From positions 1-64,000 of the forward strand of contig JAODTK010002688.1 of NCBI GenBank assembly GCA_026419785.1: a stretch of DNA of 64,000 nucleotides. Direction: 5' to 3'. A model generated the notes under the pieces. That model saw nothing but the letters and a program-made list of their open reading frames with translations. It did no database searches and was not told the origin of the DNA. Position 1 is the first letter of the stretch; every line of letters starts with the position of its first letter. The DNA is from Sclerodactyla briareus. Lineage: Eukaryota; Echinodermata; Holothuroidea; Dendrochirotida; Sclerodactylidae. The translations under genes and the position numbers were made by a program. Below, one piece after another: positions 5,096 through 64,000 of this stretch.

Positions 5096-8000
5096 GTGAG
5101 TTGATCAGATAATGACGTGTAGTTCTTAAGGAGCACTATATCACAGCATGATGATTCCCTGGGCATTTTACAGATACACACCCTGAATCCCTGATCATGG
5201 CAATGGGGCAATGGCTTTCTGGCAATCCCAGAGGGTAGGCTGCTGCCATTCTAGTACATACTGTACAGACCCCAATTAGATCTGGGTAGGGTGGATAGAA
5301 CTTCTGTCATACATGTATGCATTCATTCGGAAAAAGAGCATGGAGCTCAGTTGGCCGATTGGGGATGCTTTTATTCGCTGATCATATTGAGGGGATCGGG
5401 ATTCTCTTCCCTCCATTACACTGCTTTCCTACAAGGCATTATCTAGACATGTAGACTTATATGCATTCTATATTAACACTTAACCAGTTTTGTGAAGAGT
5501 CACCCCCACAAGGCTGAGCAATAACATGCTGCTTTCCCCAAAAAATTCTTTAAAGCAACTTATGTGAGTGAGGATGCGATAGACAGGAGTGGTCATGAGT
5601 CATTGTGCTTCCACTGAAGCAAAACAGTCAAAGAGTCAGAGTTTTTGTATAGGTTTAGGTCTCAGCCTGTTTATCATCCATCGCTTCAATGTTTTCCCTC
5701 TCATGCCACATCATAGGTTTGCCTGTCAGACTGTCTGTATTCGCAGTTGCGTCAACATACTTCTGTTTGTACTAAAATCGCAATCCTCGCCATGTACACT
5801 TTGTTGACAAAAGGGCCGAGTGGAGAGCAGGCACTGCTGGCAATACCAGGCACTGCTGGCAATACCAGGCACTGCTGGCAATACCAGGCACCGCTGGCAA
5901 TACCAGGCACTGCTGGCAATACCAGGCACCGCTGGCAATACCAGGCACCGCTGGCAATACAGGCGGGCTGAGGGTGTGGAAGAAGTAACTACATGCTGAC
6001 AGACCGATTCGGAAAACTCTGCTCGCACCTGTCTGCATGCCCCGCCTGGTGTCCTGGAAAGTGGAACAGCTGAAAAAATAATTTGGATCAATTCTGCCCA
6101 ACCATGCCTGCTCTATCTCATGAAAACTAGCTTTAGCCAACCATAATCCAGATAAGTATCTGATAACACATAATATTTCTCATCCATTCAAAACTGTTTA
6201 AACTTGCCACAACCTAGTGACATCATTTCCCATTTGGCTTTAACATAAACCCTGAGAACCCAGCCTATCACCCATGTGTGCTCTAATATGAATCTTCCTA
6301 CTTGATCGCCAAAAAATGAACGCCCCCCCAATTATAAACCAACCTCTATACGCCGTCGGTGGATGGGTTTTTTCTACCAACCTTCTGCAGGGGTCTAAAT
6401 AGTCAATATGTCAACTCGGCTCCCAGGTACTGGTGAAGCTCTAGGAGACAGCCACACCGGTCTGAATGGCAACACCCCTTCAGGTGCTACAGATTGTGAA
6501 GTACATAGAGAATCTACCAAGCAGCCACACTACATTGACATCCTGGACTGTCATCCAATCATCGGTGGTTGAAATGCCAGATATTTCCAGAACTTATCCA
6601 TCGTTCAGAGCAGAAGCTTAGTTGGCTTAAGCTACGTGTGAAGTGACATCCAAGGAAAGCCTGGCCTGCAATTTTTTGTATTTGTTGTCCGCATTGTGGA
6701 GTCCTTGTTCTGAGTCCGGTCCTTGTTGGGACCGGTCTCGAGACCGATTTTGGATGACTCGGTTCCGAACCAGGTTTAAGATGGCACAGAAAAAATCTCC
6801 AGGAAAATCCCCAAACTTAGGTGGAAGAATTCTGCAGTAATTTCCTGACATTGATTAATCCTAAATATACAATGTGTTTGTCAATGTCTCCAGAATTCAC
6901 TCAATTCAATTTGAAATCGGCCAATGTGTTTTGACGACTAACTGCGCTTGTCGATGCTTTACATCCGGTGTCATCCTCATGAGACTACATCATGCATGCC
7001 GTTTGCAGACTGGAGGAAGGGGGGCGGTGTTTTTGGAATGCAATGAAAAAAACGACCAACAGGATAACTGCTTTCCGAAGATTATTTTGCCTAGAGTCTT
7101 AATCCTTCACACGGTGGGAGTTGGGGATCAGGTGGGGTTATTACCTGTGGTTATTTTGTGCCTCATTCTATTAGTTCTGACACTGCTACAATGCAATTTT
7201 CATTTACTTGGCTATTGGCTATAAGGGTTTCTGAACTTCCTCAAGGATAACTCCAACTCCGAACATGTGAGTGGGCAACTCATGGGATTGAATCTGCAAC
7301 ATAACTTCACCTGTTTTGTGGGGTGGATGCAACCACTATAACTGCAATGACTTGCTTCTTTGAACCTAAATACATACCTCATGCCTGAATGCTAGTTGTG
7401 GTTTTCAGGAACTTGGACACAAGGACTTCGTCCAGGGTTTTTAGCCAAAGTTCCAATAGGGCGTCCACCTTGTGGCTGATGAAATGCTCTGACAAAAACC
7501 GGCCCTTCCAATGACCTTTCGGGCCGTCTAACAGACATGAGACCCTCTTTGGGTAAAACCCGACTCGGACTCGGATGTTTATATTCGGTCTCCGACTTGG
7601 ATGGTAGGTCTCGGACTTTGTTACTACTTCTCCTAATGACTCATCCACTGTTGACTACTGGACCTCCTCCACTCCTGCTCCTCCTCGGAAGTTCTCTATC
7701 GTATATTGACCACAAGATGACAGTTGGTTGATGTTCAAGTCCCATGCAATTAGCTGAGATGGAAATATGTCAGGGAAGTAATATTTTCGCCAAAATTTGC
7801 GCTGGGCCAAATGTCTTAGTGGTATCAATTGCATAGGGGAATTGTGTCTCAAGGCTGGGCGCGGAGTTTGATGAGCAACAGAGCAAGGACAAAATCTGCT
7901 CCACAGGAGTGTAAAAAGCTATTCAGCAGCAATAATTGAATGAGAAGGTCAAGAATTAGGGCAGAGACATGCAAGGCTTCTTCAGAACCATTGTTCATTA

Positions 8001-45681: not shown

Positions 45682-47755
45682 AGTCGGGAGGGAGATATAT
45701 TTTTTAACGATGACAACATGATTTTCCTCGAATTCAGATTTGCAAAAGATACATTTTTCAAATGTTACCCGATATTTTGTCCCCAGCCCCACTGGCTGTT
45801 CCGAATGTCCTGGCAATTGTCGGTCATCGAGTTGTGTACAGGCAGCCTTCATGTATCATCGGCAATATTACAGCACACCTGAACATCCACTCGGGAGAAG
45901 TCTCAACCTAGCGGGTCACAAAAGGCGTTCAATCTCGCCTGATTTGTAGCCTGCTAACAGCAGTCGATATTAGGGAGCAAAGCCCGTTCCTAGAATTAGA
46001 GGGACATCACTCTTGGTATATGTGTTTAATATTACCAACATATTGTTAGGCAAATCACCGATTGGGCATATGAAGGTGGTACAGAATGGGAGTACTGGTT
46101 TCACTAGTGTAGGGTTCAGTCAAGTGTTACATCATCACACCTCACTGAACCCCATATATACGGTACCTAACACTGTGCCATCGTCAAACTCATTGGTTAA
46201 AGCGTAATCCTGCTCATGCAGGTGAATGAGGGCGGCTTACGAGTGTGAACAAAGTCAAATGCCTGTTTCAACAGTACCGAGTGGGACCGTTATTTTTTCG
46301 AAAGGTTCGATATGACTATTGATTAGAGGGGACTGACTCCTCTAGACCCCGTGCAAAACCACGGAACGACTAGCTGAAAATGGAAGAAGGGAGGGAGCCT
46401 TTCTCTTCTGGTGGGGGGGGGGGGAAGGATACATATCGTTTTGCCCCCCCTCCACTTTCCAGACAGTAATAAAAAATAAAGGCCATGCCTATTTTGTAAT
46501 CACCAAACTGATCAATTTTTGTCTAACCAAACAATAACCGCGTTGGAAATTGTCTTAAAAGGTCCACTAATTCCAGTGCGGACCCCCAGGGTGAAATCTG
46601 GACACGACTATGGCCGACCAGTCGAAGGATTAACCATGTTTCATACGAGTTCTCGAATTTTAAATGAATAGCTAAGTGCATGAATTTAAATGTTTTGCGC
46701 GCAATGGCGTTTTTCTTCCAGGCCGTTGTAATAGGCGATTTGGAATGCTTCGATTTTTTCGATAAAAATGCCCGGAAAAAACATGCACATTTTTCGCGCA
46801 CTTCGCGACGCGACTGGGTAGTTTCAACTACTGGCGTGTTCAAATTGGGCACAAATTGTCTCCTCCCAAATTGGAATGGTTCCGTGCGCTTATGGCTTTT
46901 CTCTTCGATCCCACCAGGGACCGTTCGTAGACAAACAAAGCCAGAGTAGGAAGGGTTATTTAAAAAATACCATTGTGTACTCGGTAAATGCACAATTCGG
47001 TAGTATGCACAATGACAACTTTTTTGTCTTTCTGTCTTTACTCAAATCACAATGTAGGTGCGTGGGTGCTATATTGAGCCTGGCCAAGGCCGTTTCCGGC
47101 GATCTGGAGGTATGTGAAAATCTGAAATTTCCGGGATACGCTTCGCGCCAAATGATAGTGGGTTTCCGACTTAGATGGCCATTGCCATTCGAGGTGCCCC
47201 CCCCCCAATTTAAAAAGGATCGCGCCCCTGGGCTACGGTCTCAGCATCAAATACCAAAATCACCCATCAAAAGGCTCTAAGGGGGGCAATGAGACCGGTG
47301 GATTACGAAAAGATTTGTGCGTCAAAATATGTTCTGCTCGCACCAAATTCGATTACATCTATAGAAGTCCGCATGAGGCGACCTATAGAAATTGATATTA
47401 GGGAGGTGGAAAGCCTCCCTTAGGGACTATGCCTAGAAACAATGTGAGAGGAGGGTGAAATACAGAAATATTTTCGAAACGGAGGGGTGTTTGGAAGTGC
47501 TATATGAACCAATTGCAACTGAGGCGACCTGAAATGTGAAAAAATGTTCAGCCTTTGATTCTATACTCAAAATTACCGGTACCTTCCTGACAGCTGTTGT
47601 CGATCTGCGGCCACCCCCCCCCCCCCCCCCATTGATACCACCTCTCCTGGCACGCTGGTATATCTACCTACCGGAGTATCTTTCCCATGAGAACTGCGGG
47701 TAGGCGTGATGTGCATAACGACATTTGAACTTTCTGGGCAAGCAGGACACACGGG
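45682..47755. other. Non-coding stretch between the hAT-like element and the inverted pair
   Basis: No gene recognised. It includes G/C runs (46413-46424; 47614-47630) and a 156-residue ORF on the minus strand (46523-46993) without family signature or nearby splice signals. Confidence 0.45.
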
Positions 47756-47756
47756 A

Positions 47757-49745
47757 CGCAAAGTTCCCCCGCAAGCCACCGTAAGGTGGCAACACCACGA
47801 AAGCTTTTGATGGAAACTTTAATTGTTTATAGCCGCCTGATCGACGGTAACTGGGTTGAAACGCCAATTTCGCTCTGTTACAAAGCCGCCTGTAGGCGTT
47901 GAAAACGCATGGAATACCTTGCTTTATTTGGTTAAGGGACTAAGAAATCCTTGAAATATTCCGGCAGGTGCGTTATTTTGCCAGAATTGGAGGATTTTCG
48001 GGCGATTACGTAATCGTTCTTACGTCATTATACCTATGCCCCGGTTTTTTTCGGGCGATTTCCCGTAATCGTTTTCTGACGTCATTATATCCTATGACCC
48101 GGTTTTTCGGGCGATTAACGTACATCTTTTGACGTCATATAACCTATTACCCATATCATATTGACAAAAAATACAACCATAACAACAACACAATAACAAT
48201 AACAACAACAATAACACCAACAACAAGTCGGACAGCACAAATTGCCCCGACTTACCACAGCGTTTAGGTGCATGCACTGACTGCGCTTGTGGTATGTACC
48301 GTGCGGGAGTCCTAAAGGCATTCAATTGAATTGAATTGAATTACCAGACATGTGGGTTACATTACCGCAGGCGTCAACACTGAGAACGAGTTCCGGACTT
48401 ATTATGAAGGGTATATTGTAAGCGTTAGATTACGGTGGTTACCCGACCCATAGTTTTCGGAACCAGAATTTAAAGCCCTCATTTGTCGGGTGGTCAATGG
48501 CGAGTTATATGCGTGATTTCATATATGACGGATAGTGTACGTTACGTAGAAGGACCTATCCGCTGTGTCCCCCTCTTCAACAGAACTACTCGTCATTGCT
48601 GGGTTGGCGAAAAGTTGCTGAATATGAATGGTGGCATACTGTCATGCTCGCCTTTGTGATGAGCATCCTTGTTATAGTAATTGTGGAACAATGTTACGAG
48701 GATCCATCCCATGCTGCTCTTACGCCAGGGATTTGATGTGGCATTTTAGAGTGACTATTAGTTGAATAGTTATTGAACGCCTTACTTAGGACTTAGAACT
48801 AAAATTTTACTGCAATCCATAATTTAATCCCCACCGAAGTTGGCCATCCCCAACTCTTCAGTGTGGTTAAAGGCCAGCCTCTTCACACGATGCCTTTTTG
48901 TCTGGAGGCAATTCAGTTTGCTTAATAAGAACAGAGAATGTGTCGCTGTAAGCTTGCCAATGTGAGACAATCTAAGATGTTTGGTGGTGAGGATGCTTAC
49001 GCCTAAGGTGAAGGCATCCTCCTCACCTAATGATAGGGTTATATTTCCATTTCATAAATTACTCATATTTTGTGATGTAGAACGAACTTAATCATCATAT
49101 CATAAATATTTTTTTAGGTGGTTAAAAGCAACCCATCAAAATTTGGGGATTTTGCTCACGGGAGCACAATGTGACGCTGACGTGACATTGTCGCCGAAAA
49201 ACTCATTGAGTTATAAAAAACAGAACGAAATCATCTTCGTGTGATTTTCTTACATAACCTGTTGGAGTAATTGAAAGACAAGCTACAATCTTTTTACTGG
49301 TGCGCCACAATGGAAATTTTGTTCACCGTTAGGTGACTCCACACCAAGATTATAGCGTAGGCATAAGACCTTGTATGTTAGGCTGTTCAACTTCGTGAAC
49401 TCCTTTGACTGACGTGCCACAGCCCCCACAGCCTGTTTTCCACAATGGCCAGTGATGAGGAACCTTAATGGCCAGTAACAACCTATGCAAGTACCGCCTA
49501 GCCTATTCATTTACTCCCAACTTCATATTCTACTACACCAATACAATAATTAGTCCTAATTCAGGCTTCGCGAATGAGATGGGGCTGGATAGTGTTTAGG
49601 CCTATTTTATCTTGCGGATCTACTGTGTAACCGTAATTTGTAGATTGTAATGTGAATTTTTAAGTCGCCTATGCTAGGCGCCAAGCTGAGGGCCTAACGT
49701 TAGGCTAACCTAAGCCTAAGGTCGGGGCCATCACTTCAGCCTACT
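47757..49745 (+). repeat. 2-kb unit, first copy (order A-B-C-D-E-F-G)
   Basis: Matches 49746-51770 in reverse complement throughout. Anchors are GCAAAGTTCCCCC, CCACCGTAAGGTGG and GGAATACCTTGCTTT (block A), a GTCGGACAGCACAA/ACAACA microsatellite and AATTGAATTGAATTACCAG (B), AGGACCTATCCGCTGT (C), GTGGTTAAAGGCC and ACCTAATGATAGGG (D), AACTCATT.AG (E), AGGTGACTCC.CACACCAA (F), GGCCTAACGTTAGGCTAACC (G). No ORF above 80 codons has a signature. It contains small palindromes, for example around 48990-49035. The element class is unknown. Confidence 0.85.
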
Positions 49746-51770
49746 TCTTCAGGTAACCGTAAAATCTAACGCCTACAAAGATACTATGACATGCTTCATA
49801 AGTCCGAGAACTTCGTTCTATTTGGACGCGTGCGGTATTGTAACCCACATGTCTGGTAATTCAATTCAATTCAATTCAATGCCTTCGGCTCCAGCCATGT
49901 ACATACCACAGGCGCAGTCATGCATGCATTGCATGCGCGCGCCCCACGTACGATGTGGTGCAAGCCTAACGACTGTGGGAAAAGTGAGGGAATTGTGCTG
50001 TCCGACTGTTGTTGTTGTTATGGTGTTGTTTTTGTTGTTATTGTTGTGTTTGGTATTGTTATTGTTATGGTTGTGTTGTTGTTGTTGTGGTTTTCGTCAA
50101 TATGACTCGGGGGTTCTAGGTTATATCTGACGTCAGAACGATTACGTAATCGCCCGTAAATCCGGTCATAGGTTATAATGACGCAGAACCAATTACGTAC
50201 TCGCCCGACCGAAAATCCTCAATTTCGGCCAAAATAATTCGCCTGCCCGAAATATTTTCAAGGATTTCTAGCTCCTCAAAAAAAAGCAAGGTATTCCATG
50301 CGTTCAACAGCCATAGAGGCGGCTTTCTTGTATTGTAACAAAGATAAGTTTACGTTTCAAACCATTACTGTCGATCAGGCTACTAAACAAATAGGAGTGT
50401 TCCATCAAGCTTTCGTCGTGTGTAGCCACCTTACGGTGGATTTCCGGGGGAACTTTTGCGGTCAAAGTAGGCTGGAGTGAATGCTCCGACCCCTTAGGCT
50501 TAGGTTAGCCTAACGTTAGGCCCTCAGCTTGCCGCCTAGCCTTAGTCGGACATAAAAATTCACATTACAAATCTACAAATTACGGGTACACAGTCGCCGC
50601 AAGAATAAAGTAGGTCTAAACACCATCCAGCCCAATCTCATTTCGCGAGCCTTTACTTAGGACTATATTATTGTAATGTTTGTAGTAGAATATGACTTTG
50701 TGAGTAAATGAATAGCTAGCTAGGCTTGTACTTGCAAAGGTTGTTACTGACCATAATGTTCTCACATCACGGCCGTTGTTGAAAACAGGATGTAGGGTGT
50801 GGCACGACAGTCAAATGAGTGACGAAGTGAAGCCTACATACAGTCTATGCCACGCATAATCTTTGGTGTGGGGAGTCACCTAAGGATGAACAATTTCAAT
50901 TGGGCGCACCAGCCTAAAATATTGATAGCTTGTCTTTCAATTACTTTACAGTACATGTAAAGAAAATCACAACAAATCTGGATATAGTGGTTTTTTCATT
51001 GTAACCTCTAATGAGTTTTCGGCTGACAAGGTCACGTCAGCGTAAAATTTACTTTCCACGTGAGAAAATTCCCCAAATTTTGATTGGTTGCCTTTTTTTT
51101 AAACACATCAGAAAGAGATTTTAATGATGTGATGATTTAGGTTCGTCTTAACATCACAAAATAAGGTATTTATGAAATGGAATAGAACCCTATCATTAGG
51201 TGAGAGGATGCATTCCCTTAGGGTAAGCATCCTCTCACCACCCAAACATCTTCAGCCATGCTACCCCATTTGCCAAGCTTCGCGACCCAAATATTCTCTG
51301 TATTATTAGGCAAAAAAATGAAGTGCCCTCAAGACAAAAAGGACCAGATCGTGTGAAGAGGCCTTTAACCACACTTGAAGAGTTGAGAGGAGCCAAACTT
51401 CGGTGGGATTAAATTATGATGCAGTTGAAAAGGCAAAAGTTATAACTATTATAACATTAGTCACTCTACAAAACATGCCAATAACTCCCTGTCGTTAGTA
51501 GCTTGGATGGAATCACTCGTCACTTCTTATTGGTTCACAACTTATTGATATAACAAGATGCTCACAAAGGCGAGTATGACATGTATGCCCAACCATTTAA
51601 TATTCGCACCTTTTCTCCAACCCAGCGATGACAGGTAGTTTTGTTGGAGACAGCGGATAGGTCCTTCCTACATAACGTACGGATATCTGTCATATATTGA
51701 ACACCATATTAACTCGCCAATTGACCCACTCGCAATGAAGGCTTTAAAATTTCTGGTGGTTCCGAAAAAA
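49746..51770 (-). repeat. 2-kb unit, second copy, inverted and circularly permuted (B'-A'-G'-F'-E'-D'-C')
   Basis: On the plus strand the blocks appear as B' (about 49748-50099), A' (50100-50475), G' (50487-50690), F' (50700-50960), E' (50990-51095), D' (51110-51400), C' (51470-51768). An ordinary inverted copy would read G'F'E'D'C'B'A'. Here the outer ends of the first copy (A and G) are joined at about 50475-50490, while its B/C junction (about 48445-48455) has become the ends. Divergence between copies looks like roughly a fifth of bases. Confidence 0.85.
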
Positions 51771-53755
51771 TCTGGATGAGACTCGATCAGCAGTGGTACA
51801 AGGATGATCGTGGTTGAGACCAAGAAACACTGCCCATGAGCGTGATGAGAATATTCATCAATAATGATGATTTTTTTTTAAGTCCTGCAATTGCCATGAC
51901 TAAACATTTTTAAATCTATGCAAGTTGTCCGATGGCAAGATATTAGTATCTTTCGTTGCCCTGTTTCTCATGAATATTACATGCAGGTCCTATTCAGACC
52001 GACGAGCCAATTATAGTTAGGTCTCACCGGGATCTACTACGTATCGGAAGCCATGTTGATCCTCACTAAGTAAGTTTGGATTGTCAAAATGCGGACGTCG
52101 ACGTGAAATTATTAATCAAGTGACATGTTCCAACTGCTTACAACTTCAGTAGTGAGTAGTGACTATAGTGAGGGAGACTGGGAGTGGAAGGGGGTTTATT
52201 TTATAGTTCTATATGAGTCACCTTTTTTCTTTTTTTTTAGGATATGTTTGCAACATTCTTTGTTGAGAGCCTAGATAACGAAAATTCAATTAAAGCTGTA
52301 CAACAAACTGCAGCGTGTGTACTGGACGTGACTATTTTTCACTATTGGCATTCAATGGAAAATGGATGATTTGGAAGACGAATTTCGTTGACACCCGTTA
52401 GTTTTTTCGTCTCAACTTATTCACCCCCCCCCCCCTCATTCTCGTAGGCCTATACGGCCCAGACCACCTGAATCAGAGGCCCTACGATGGAGGGTTCACC
52501 AACTATTGACTATATTGGGCATACATTTTTATCCGTCTGAGGGGGGAATTATAAGTCAAATAAATAAATGAAAAATAAAAGACCTGGCCCTTCTCGAGCG
52601 TTGAAATGACCATATGGCGACTTAAAGGCAACATTTTCGTTATTCTCTACACTTACCTGTTGGTATGATGCGACGGGCACTGGGGCATGAGCGTCCACCC
52701 ACCCTCTCAAACATTGGGAGGGGGCGGGGGGGGGGTGTGGCCACATTTTCTAAATTACTGTGTGAAAATGATTAAGTCAATTGGAGATTTGTCAAAAAGT
52801 GGGGGGGGGGGGCAGCGTCCCCCCGTCCCCCACGTTGACGCCCATGCTGAGGTGGAATAGGGATTGTTTTTGCGTAGCGGCTGGCACGCCACAGCATCAT
52901 GCCCCCCTCATTTTTCTACTCCCTCACCTCTCCGTCCGCTACCTTCATACACTTACCCGATATTTCTTCGGTTTTTTTCCCCCGATGAGGACCTGTCAGG
53001 GTAAGTATTAGGCAAAATGAATGTTGTGCATTATTAATTTATTGAGAAATGAAAAAGGGGTATGGCTTGCGAGTGATATTTCCGCCCCCACATTTTTCCT
53101 GGGGGTCGACGCCTTGCTTGACCAATTATCATCTATCAGTAAAGAGTGTATATGTACTAGGAACAGGATTCCATAGATGTGCGGATTGTAGCTGTGCGAG
53201 GGAGGCTATCCACGCTGAATGATCAATTTAGAAGGAATATACAACTGCATGTATTAATTAAGGGTCAGAAATATTAGTAAATCACGGATTGAGAAACGTG
53301 GAATTGCTTCAGTAGGAAGTTGTTCCATAGAAACCCTTTGCCATGACAGAAACAAAAAAAATACACGATCATTGCTGCTTCGATACCCATGGTAATTTAG
53401 TCTACTCAGTGTTCGTTCCATTTATTCAATGATATTTTGAGCTACTGAACTTGTCAACAAAATTGCAACCATGCAGATGATTTAGATGCGTCAGTTTGTA
53501 CTCGCGTCTGAAATTACGCTTTTCGGGGAGTCATGCCACATCGCACCCATGAATCACACCCAAGCTCGGATTACCAAATGCGTATCGTATTGCGTATGTA
53601 AATTGGCTCAGCCCGGACCCCATACTCATCAATGGAATCTGCCTTCGGCCTACTATCTTGCTCTATGATACCTTGCCCAATGACACTGACTGTTTGGGTT
53701 CTTCCAATCGTTTTCAGTCTTTCATTTGTCTCTAAAACTCTAGCAAGTAATCATA
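51771..53755. other. Non-coding stretch after the inverted pair
   Basis: Nothing recognised beyond G/C runs (52426-52436, 52801-52812) and simple AT-rich sequence. ORFs below 80 codons without motifs. Confidence 0.45.
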
Positions 53756-61420: not shown

Positions 61421-62904
61421 AGCAAATTGGAATAACTTAACAAGGTGTCATGCTAGAACCTCCAAAATTGGGGTGTGGTTTTTTTATATGTCCGCTTTTC
61501 AACACCCTGGGCGTGTTTTAAAGAAAATCTGTTACAATGATCCTTGGCTTTAAAGAGAGAAGGGAAGGGGTCGGATTCAAACCTTCCACCCCATAACACC
61601 AACTCTTCTTCTATAGACTTTACCATTATATTTCTAAAGCTTAAAAAAGATTACAGACGTGGGTGTTCATATGGTCTGTGAGGTTATGTTATGTCTACAA
61701 GGGGCAAAGAAAAGCGAAAGGGGGGAGGGGGGTAGACAGGAAGAGGGTCGAGTTAAGCATTCCACGCCAACATGTCACCCCTGATTTTCGTACGGCTTTC
61801 CCATATATTCGGTGAAGGTGAAAAAGATTGCATCATATTCCATTCATTTCATATTTAGCGGGCGACAAACAGGTGCGACACTAGCCGCGGTTGTGGGATG
61901 GGGGGGGGGGGCTAGGCCGAAAGGCTCGGTCCTCCTTCTGGTACTTTTCTCCCTCTCCCCATTCCCTCACTAGCCCCGAAATTTAAAGAATGACAGGGAA
62001 ATAAACTGTGGTCAAAAATACTATTTTCGTCAAGGGGGCATGCTGATGTTTGCCTGTCGGGGGCCTAATATGGCCCCCACCCCCTCACGCAAACCCCAAC
62101 GTTGCCCCTGGTGGATACGGCATGTTGTCTTGTCTAAATGTTCCAAAACTGACCAAGCAATTACTTTTTGAGCGTGTCATTAAATGACTGGCAGGTCCCT
62201 CAAATATTAGGGGATACCCCCCTTCCCCCCAAAGGGCCTCCCCGTCCATCTCGCACTTTTCAATGGGTAGAGGATGAGTTAGCTCGGGTCTGGTATACTA
62301 GATCATATTGATTAGGACTACCTTATGAATGTCATTGCTGGTTTATTCTCATCACCACCACTCCAGCATTTTGGCAGGACATCTTCGAATACTGTTTGTG
62401 AATGACGGTAAAGTAACTGTTATCAAATATTTAAGCATTTAAGCAAGCCATCTCCATTGGTGAACGTCAGTACAGACATTTATAATTAAATGAGGCCCAG
62501 TATACCACTGACGTAGACCTACACCTTCCCACACTTTAATAGATCTTCTATTTTGGCGTTGTCCATTCCATGGAGGCTGCCATTTTGTCAAGTCATATGA
62601 CTAGAATCGCTAGACGATAATCAGCTGATTCAAGTATGACTCTCTGATCGGTCCAAAAGCCCATACAACCTCAGACACATGTGGCCAAATAATTGATTTT
62701 GAATTATTGGACACAAGTTGTGTCCACGGTTGTGCAACTGTGTCCTCTTGTAAATCCTCATGTTTTTGCTCTTACCACTGTCAACATTTGCGGACACAAG
62801 GCGTCGCGGACACATGTTGACAGTGTACACCGGCCTTTATTGTGCACATATACTGATCTTTGACCTTGGAATTCCTGAACACCCCATAGGTCATAAGTGA
62901 CCAT

Positions 62905-64000
62905 GTCTTAACCCATTACTGGTTAAGGAGGGTCAGGATGTCATGTGGACCATGTCTTACCATTGCTGGTTAGGAAGGGCAGGACGTCACATGACCATGT
63001 CTTACCCATTGCTGGTAGGGAGGGTCAGGATGTCATGTGACCAGGTCTTACCCATTGCTGGTTTAGGGGAGGGTCAGAATGTCATGTGACCATGTCTTAA
63101 CCATTGCTGGTTAGGGAGGGTCAGGAGGTCATGTGACCAGGTCTTACCCATTGCTGGTTAGGTAGGGGCAGGATGTCATGTGACCATGTCTTACCAATTA
63201 CTGGTTAGGGAGGTTCAGGATGTCATGGGACCATGTCTTACCCATTGCTGGTTAGGGAGGGGCAGGATGTCATGTGACATGTCTTACCCATTGGCTGGTT
63301 AGGGAGGGGCAGGATGTCATGTTACCATGTCTTACCCATTGTGGTTAGGGAGGGGCAGGATGTCATGTGACCATGTCTTACCCATTGCTGGTTGGGTAGG
63401 GGCAGGAGGTCATGTGACCATGTCTTACCCATTACTGGTTAGGGAGGGTCAGGATGTCATTTGACCATGTCTTACCCATTGCTGGTTAGGGAGGGTCAGG
63501 ATGTCATGGGACCATGTCTTACCCATGGCTGGTTAGGGAGGGGCAGGATGTCAGGTGACCATGTCTTAACCCATTACTGGTTAGGGAGAGGCAGGATGTC
63601 ATGTGGACCATGTCTTACCCATTGCTGGTTAGGGTATAGGGGGTGAGAGGGTCAGAATGTCATGTGACCATGTCTTACCCATTGCTGGTTAGGGAGAGGC
63701 AGGATGTCATGTGACCAGTCTTACCCATTACTGGTTAGGTAGGGGCAGGATGTCATGTGACCATGTCCCTCACATGCAATCTCAACCAATTTACTGTTAG
63801 GGAGGGTCAGGATGTCATGTGACCATGTCTTACCCATTGGCTGGTTAGGGAGGGGCAGGATGTCATGTGACCATGGCTTACCCATTGCTGGTTAGTGAGG
63901 GTTAGGATGTCATGTGACCATGTCTTACTCATTGCTGGTTAGGGAGGGGCAGGATGTCATGTGACCATGTCTTACCATTGCTGGTTAGGAGGGTCAGGAT
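62905..64000 (+). repeat. 47-bp minisatellite, about 23 copies, runs off the window
   Basis: The consensus of 47 bp contains GACCATGTCTTACCCATTGC, TGGTTAGGGAGGG and CAGGATGTCATGT. Units vary by 1-2 bases (GGGTCAG or GGGGCAG; ACCC or AACC). It begins directly after the interrupted TGACCT-family unit, in which a GTGACCATGTC-like sequence may have seeded it. Confidence 0.93.

Follow-up and report, generated by a model that had tools for sequence, protein, structure and literature searches.

Positions 47755-51774 of the window (the whole 64,000-nucleotide stretch of Sclerodactyla briareus DNA analysed here) are made up of a dispersed, non-coding transposon about 2.0 kb long, present twice: an outer copy on the plus strand (47755-48448 and 50465-51774) is split by a complete inner copy on the minus strand. 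Elsewhere in the genome, copies of the element appear to have been hit at the same interior spot. We are highly confident that the best explanation of the whole is reverse nesting, with duplication-free insertion into a likely interior self-target, presumably by an enzyme acting in trans. Nesting of repeats is a known process; recurrence at one self-site is an uncommon twist on it.

A preliminary description of this region had divided it into blocks running A-B-C-D-E-F-G and then B'-A'-G'-F'-E'-D'-C', an order that it held a simple inverted duplication unable to give; both the order and the argument stand. A repeat search of 46500-53000 yielded 24 pairs of inverted repeats but no family of direct repeats, and each of the 23 pairs lying within the region joins L (blocks A-B) with L' or R (blocks C-D-E-F-G) with R', so that the region reads L-R-L'-R' and not in mirror order. 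With BLASTN, L (47757-48448) matched itself and, on the minus strand, 49756-50456 at 71% identity; R (48448-49746) matched itself and, again on the minus strand, 50465-51768 at 78% identity. These inverted block matches are far beyond chance; the two window copies differ by 20-30% divergence and many indels. The limits of the region were refined from the element ends, and its features are as follows.

47755-48448, plus strand: left part of the outer copy (L; A-B), running from its left terminus GACGCAAAG up to the insertion point.
48434-48475, plus strand: left nesting junction, outer GGTGGTTACCCGACC / inner right terminus CATAGTTTTCGGAACC.
48449-50464, minus strand: inner copy, complete, with its right terminus at 48449 and its left terminus at about 50464.
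50440-50485, plus strand: right nesting junction, inner left terminus GAACTTTTGCGGTC / outer AAGTAGGCTGG.
50465-51774, plus strand: outer copy, right part (R'; G'-C'), resuming at AAGTAGGCTGG and ending in ...GGTTCCGAAAAAATCTG.

The left terminus of the outer copy is common to other copies of the element, and this copy breaks at the self-site; its right part aligns with single copies and is followed by GAT, as at other insertions. The inner copy has the block order and both termini of the 19 single copies presented below. The only ORF of at least 100 aa in the region (49786-50130, 114 aa) had no Pfam match at E 0.001; a Pfam search with 10 of the window's 34 ORFs of this size gave nothing at that threshold, and an Rfam search of the window gave no match at the gathering threshold. 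Poly-C/poly-G runs (47618-47647 and 52783-52812) flank the region as a weak inverted pair and are probably simple repeats. The window also contains a 19-bp tandem array of about seven copies (5828-5964, 96% matches) and a minisatellite with a 47-bp unit (62897-64000), which reaches the window end.

The ordinary form of the element was established by searching the 319.5-Mb assembly (3171 contigs) with the first unit of the preliminary description, 40 of 540 candidates being scored and 103 pieces returned. Among these, L and R are oppositely oriented in most places having both parts. Twenty of these loci were taken with their flanks for structure comparison, and 19 carry an unbroken L-R' (or R-L'), the sole exception being L013 (C2479), where the order is L then R. 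In the alignment, the sequence ...TTACGGTGGTTACC[CT]GACCAAGTAGGCTG... crosses the supposed unit boundary in all 19 single copies as well as in the window's inner copy, with small differences among the single copies and a gap in L019 just before that boundary; the outer window copy halts at ...GTTACCCGAC(C) and picks up at (AA)GTAGGCTGG. Both window junctions sit where single copies are continuous. Since single copies are unbroken across 48448, this position (the cut between blocks B and C) is an insertion point, not a unit boundary. This is the structure that defines a nested element: one element, itself complete, breaks into another at a single point, and the outer parts are continuous once the inner copy is disregarded.

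The second copy had been read as circularly permuted, as if a circle of the unit, cut at B/C, had been opened elsewhere and inserted in reverse; a palindrome followed by movement of B'A' and a tandem array with an inversion had been offered as alternatives. The order L-R-L'-R', taken alone, suits such readings. The ordinary element, however, is L-R' (B joined to G') and not L-R in 19 of the 20 loci, and circular permutation is therefore not needed. Head-to-tail joins, expected of a tandem or circular origin, were also sought, and none occurs among the 79 right ends with a 25-base flank. A permuted circle, a rearranged palindrome or a rearranged array now seems very improbable, and as a description of the units such readings are refuted. 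The idea that L might form long inverted repeats around R was rejected as well because single copies carry one L each. We give as little weight to an assembly mis-join of two copies: such repeats can be mis-joined, but the junctions coincide exactly with element termini and with the motif used by other insertions, and junctions of the same kind are found in five other contigs.

The element starts with GACGCAAAGTTCCCGGAAATCCACC... and finishes with ...TTTAAATTCTGGTTCCGAAAACTCTG (GACGCAAAGTTCC... / ...GGTTCCGAAAACTCTG). The genome contains 52 left ends at no more than 2 mismatches and 153 right ends at no more than 3, with none for the reversed-pattern controls in either case; the earlier view of the unit as a non-coding element was right, and it has many copies. 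Measured against the leave-one-out majority, the R parts of these single copies (19 in number) show 90-96% identity, a range biased upward because these copies are the best matches to the query. The tree of copies is star-shaped and few of its branches are supported, as expected after a single old burst. Imperfect 14-base inverted ends, CAAAGTTCCCGGAA / CAGAGTTTTCGGAA, lie at 0 and 4 bases from the element ends and agree at 11 of 14 positions, which 46 of 5000 shuffles equalled. A palindrome, CCACC-GTAA-GGTGG, lies near one end; the folding energies of four end stretches were no better than those of shuffles, with no stable hairpin at the right end. Two longer copies, in C1892 (L088; 4.8 kb between ends) and C944 (L089; 3.1 kb), were considered as possibly autonomous relatives and turned out to be ordinary copies interrupted by unrelated DNA, about 3 kb in the first and 0.5-0.7 kb in the second; the longest stop-to-stop frame in each stretch taken there has 150 codons. 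A viral origin was likewise discarded, the exact 25-base left terminus having no match in viral contigs. At L121 (C3034:169200-170800), two right termini of the family point away from each other at a distance of about 1.2 kb, an arrangement resembling a nested pair whose two left parts are gone.

Searches with junction queries gave further junction-spanning matches, for the left nesting junction of the window in C2540, C2479, C2945, and C2096, and for the right one in C2096 and C1160 and also in C2540, there at a second level of nesting. Outer L is joined to inner R both in C2479, where the inner copy is shortened, and in C2540, where a third left terminus in turn interrupts the inner copy at the same place. 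The inner copy is truncated in C2945; C2096 retains both junctions around an internally deleted inner copy, and C1160 has the right junction. With the window, this amounts to six loci and seven events. The right-terminus product could be read in five of the loci and the left-terminus product in four, and to within a base or two the place is the same. A preference for CTNGDT alone would be expected to yield 0.005-0.19 same-place events by chance, assuming copy numbers of 153 to 540. Intact self-sites number 46 at no more than 3 mismatches. Strict junction patterns (no more than 3 mismatches) recovered only the window and C2479 for the left junction and nothing in the genome for the right one; the remaining nested copies have diverged too far and contain indels. 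C2487 (L029) was tried as a seventh nested locus and set aside as ambiguous, only its left-terminus side being roughly like the self-site.

One has to keep in mind that the junction queries can detect only this one site. A flank control, covering 20 left-end and 20 right-end flanks as well as both flanks of the 19 loci, revealed one separate element fragment, in L024 and well away from its copy; its right-end flanks came from rows that do not span a junction and could show other sites only. No nesting at other element sites was seen in the flanks sampled. None of 39 right-end flanks, drawn irrespective of nesting, was nested (one, L129, has a 32-base match to the element at 84%), and nesting is thus not frequent. 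In the mostly open-access literature on nested or self-inserted elements, we found no recurrence at one base of this kind.

Target duplications at the ends of copies had been proposed as a check, and none was found at the sites compared. L021 (C2492) and L023 (C1081) are inserted at the same base of another repeat, their flanks being 78% and 81% identical. A search with the joined L021 flanks returned 29 places, including both halves at L021 itself and a single half at L023; the 14 other places examined are empty sites (L034-L047), which we compared with the two filled ones. The empty site, ATTACTG-GGTGTAAAG, becomes ATTACTG/GACG...CTCTG/GGTGTAAAG when filled, with no duplication; one shared G can be assigned to either side, leaving the exact cut uncertain by one base. 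Nor do the nested sites, where the sequence before insertion is known, show a target-site duplication. The repeat hit by L021 and L023 has many empty copies and may be a second recurrent target.

The flanks define a short asymmetric target. On the left, C stands at -3 in 32 of 39 flanks and T at -2 in 31 of 39, a few of these being nested sites; on the right, in the 39 flanks drawn irrespective of nesting, G comes first in 36, C second in only 2, and T third in 36 (an earlier right-flank set of 36 had G in 33 and T in 27). The target is about CTN^G[AGT]T, entered without target-site duplication. The interior self-site, at canonical position 718-720 of about 2022, reads CTACTT^GGTCAGG on the minus strand and is filled in at least six loci. 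Four of the five right-terminus products at nested sites read CT[ACG]TG/GGTC, which is not a copy of CTT; the junction in C2945 reads CTCTG/ATCAGG, off by a base or two.

Whether the nested loci record one insertion or several was addressed by clade tests, with groups set by structure and a quick tree inspected beforehand. The outer copies as one clade were rejected for R (p-AU 0.0149, 4 rows against 23; p-AU 0.0153, 5 against 24, when C2487 is added) and likewise for L (p-AU 0.0067, 5 against 18, leaving out L016, L022, and C2487). C2487, being ambiguous, was omitted from the last clade tests and included in earlier ones. The outer copy of the window groups with four single copies in a starred set of five (97/86). 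Because the outer copies do not form a single lineage, a self-target was likely entered repeatedly, and independent insertions are favoured.

The main rival to independent insertions is gene conversion spreading one inner copy after a single early nesting; a composite moving as a unit belongs to the same alternative, which we consider unlikely but worth weighing. It agrees with the same base and orientation in every case read, and the tests do not reject one clade of inner copies (p-AU 0.0925 and 0.18 with C2487, 0.161 without it). On the tree, the inner label needs 4 changes, the same as shuffled labels. The rejection of a single outer clade speaks against composite movement. Moreover, inner copies share derived letters about as single copies do (mean 0.059 against 0.056, counting C2487 as inner), the inner copy of C2540 has itself been hit at the same place, and the inner right termini differ (CTATG, CTGTG, CTCTG). 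We advance only tentatively, as a possibility we would not yet back, the stronger claim that the element contains a landing pad, with new copies repeatedly inserting at one base of older copies by a recombinase-type, duplication-free reaction.

Reverse nesting could have proceeded as follows. An enzyme supplied in trans would join both element ends to a single target position; the donor was probably a circle or a single-stranded copy, whose joined ends, CTCTG^GACGC, would resemble the target; movement of this sort has been put forward for Crypton (tyrosine recombinase) and Helitron2/Helentron (rolling circle) elements. The interior site would act as a preferred self-target, and its asymmetric motif would fix the orientation of insertion, hence the proposed recurrence of the L-R-L'-R' order each time. 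Insertion without target-site duplication makes a circular intermediate possible; taken together with the short asymmetric target and the target-like joined ends, it would suggest a circle or a single-stranded intermediate rather than an ordinary DDE transposase. A DDE cut-and-paste transposon with short imperfect terminal inverted repeats is, in our judgement, rather improbable. Its precedent is Spy (PHIS superfamily), which, in the excerpted text of PMC4482050, also inserts without target-site duplications, and the imperfect 14-base ends (11/14) would suit it; Spy inserts within AAATTT, however, as opposed to about CTN^G[AGT]T here, and the inverted ends of our element are short, imperfect, and offset by four bases. 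The movement of the element fits best with a Crypton-like or Helitron2-like process, which would be a likeness of movement and not family membership.

In the excerpts of Kojima and Jurka (PMC3212892), a tyrosine-recombinase site consists of 6-8 bp flanked by a pair of inverted repeats, each of 11-13 bp, and non-autonomous animal Cryptons are reported to be abundant. The hypothetical element junction GGTTCCGAAAACT-CTGGACGC-AAAGTTCCCGGAAATCC roughly fits this layout, and the joined ends could form two arms around a short core, as in Crypton sites (PMC3212892). Like the Cryptons of those excerpts, for which circle integration by a tyrosine recombinase is proposed, the element is non-coding and lacks target-site duplications, as seen at L034-L047 against L021 and L023 and at the nested sites; unlike it, animal Cryptons are described in the same text as being without any terminal repeats (PMC3212892). 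The genome contains one degraded Crypton-like tyrosine recombinase frame (L090, C1216:519173-519721; PF00589, 33.5 bits; PF12012, 26.9 bits), and the surrounding 4.6 kb gave no clear end of the element, with one weak 16-base match only. Neither a mobilising enzyme nor an autonomous partner was found among the longer copies or around this recombinase-like locus.

Helitron-like Rep (PF14214) gave three matches in two places (C2413:103101-103575 and C2926:127103-127219), so rolling-circle elements exist in this genome. FoHeli, a Helitron2-type element of Fusarium oxysporum, resembles ours, as far as the excerpts of PMC5148889 go, in self-insertion, opposite orientation included, in the lack of duplication in reconstructed pre-insertion sites, and in its asymmetric terminal inverted repeats. 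It differs in its target, TNAT^A or TNAT^T; those excerpts describe one nested example and composites rather than recurrence at one base (PMC5148889), and the element here is not linked to a Rep-helicase. Non-autonomous Helentrons (HINE / DINE-1), in the excerpts of PMC4067079, are likewise non-coding, leave the target unmodified, and carry subterminal inverted repeats and a palindrome near one end. Their target, by contrast, is T-rich with TT, as against about CTN^G[AGT]T here, and about 38-60 bp separate their 3' subterminal repeat from the end, as against 4 bp; the Helentron arrangement, repeats of 12-15 bp at 2-4 nt and about 38-60 bp from the ends, is absent from our element, whose terminal hairpin, unlike theirs, folds no better than shuffles (PMC4067079). 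The marks of a canonical Helitron1 (5'-TC, 3'-CTRR, a hairpin 10-12 nt from the 3' end, insertion at A/T) were not found: there is no TC start, the target is not A^T, and no stable right-end hairpin exists; with the shared G included, the right end could read CTGG. Autoinsertion of plant LTR retrotransposons, in the excerpts of PMC6911290, is also same-family nesting with a positional preference; that preference is regional, whereas we see one-base recurrence in a non-LTR, non-coding element.

An apparently exotic arrangement thus comes down to a nested insertion, and a repeat splitting a repeat can mimic circular permutation. Provided that the hits at this one place arose independently, the self-site offers a natural assay for an enzyme that integrates DNA without duplication, with dozens of intact copies of one target (the 46 counted above) and several filled ones in one genome. 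Single-base self-targeting, if true, would break old copies and spare the host.
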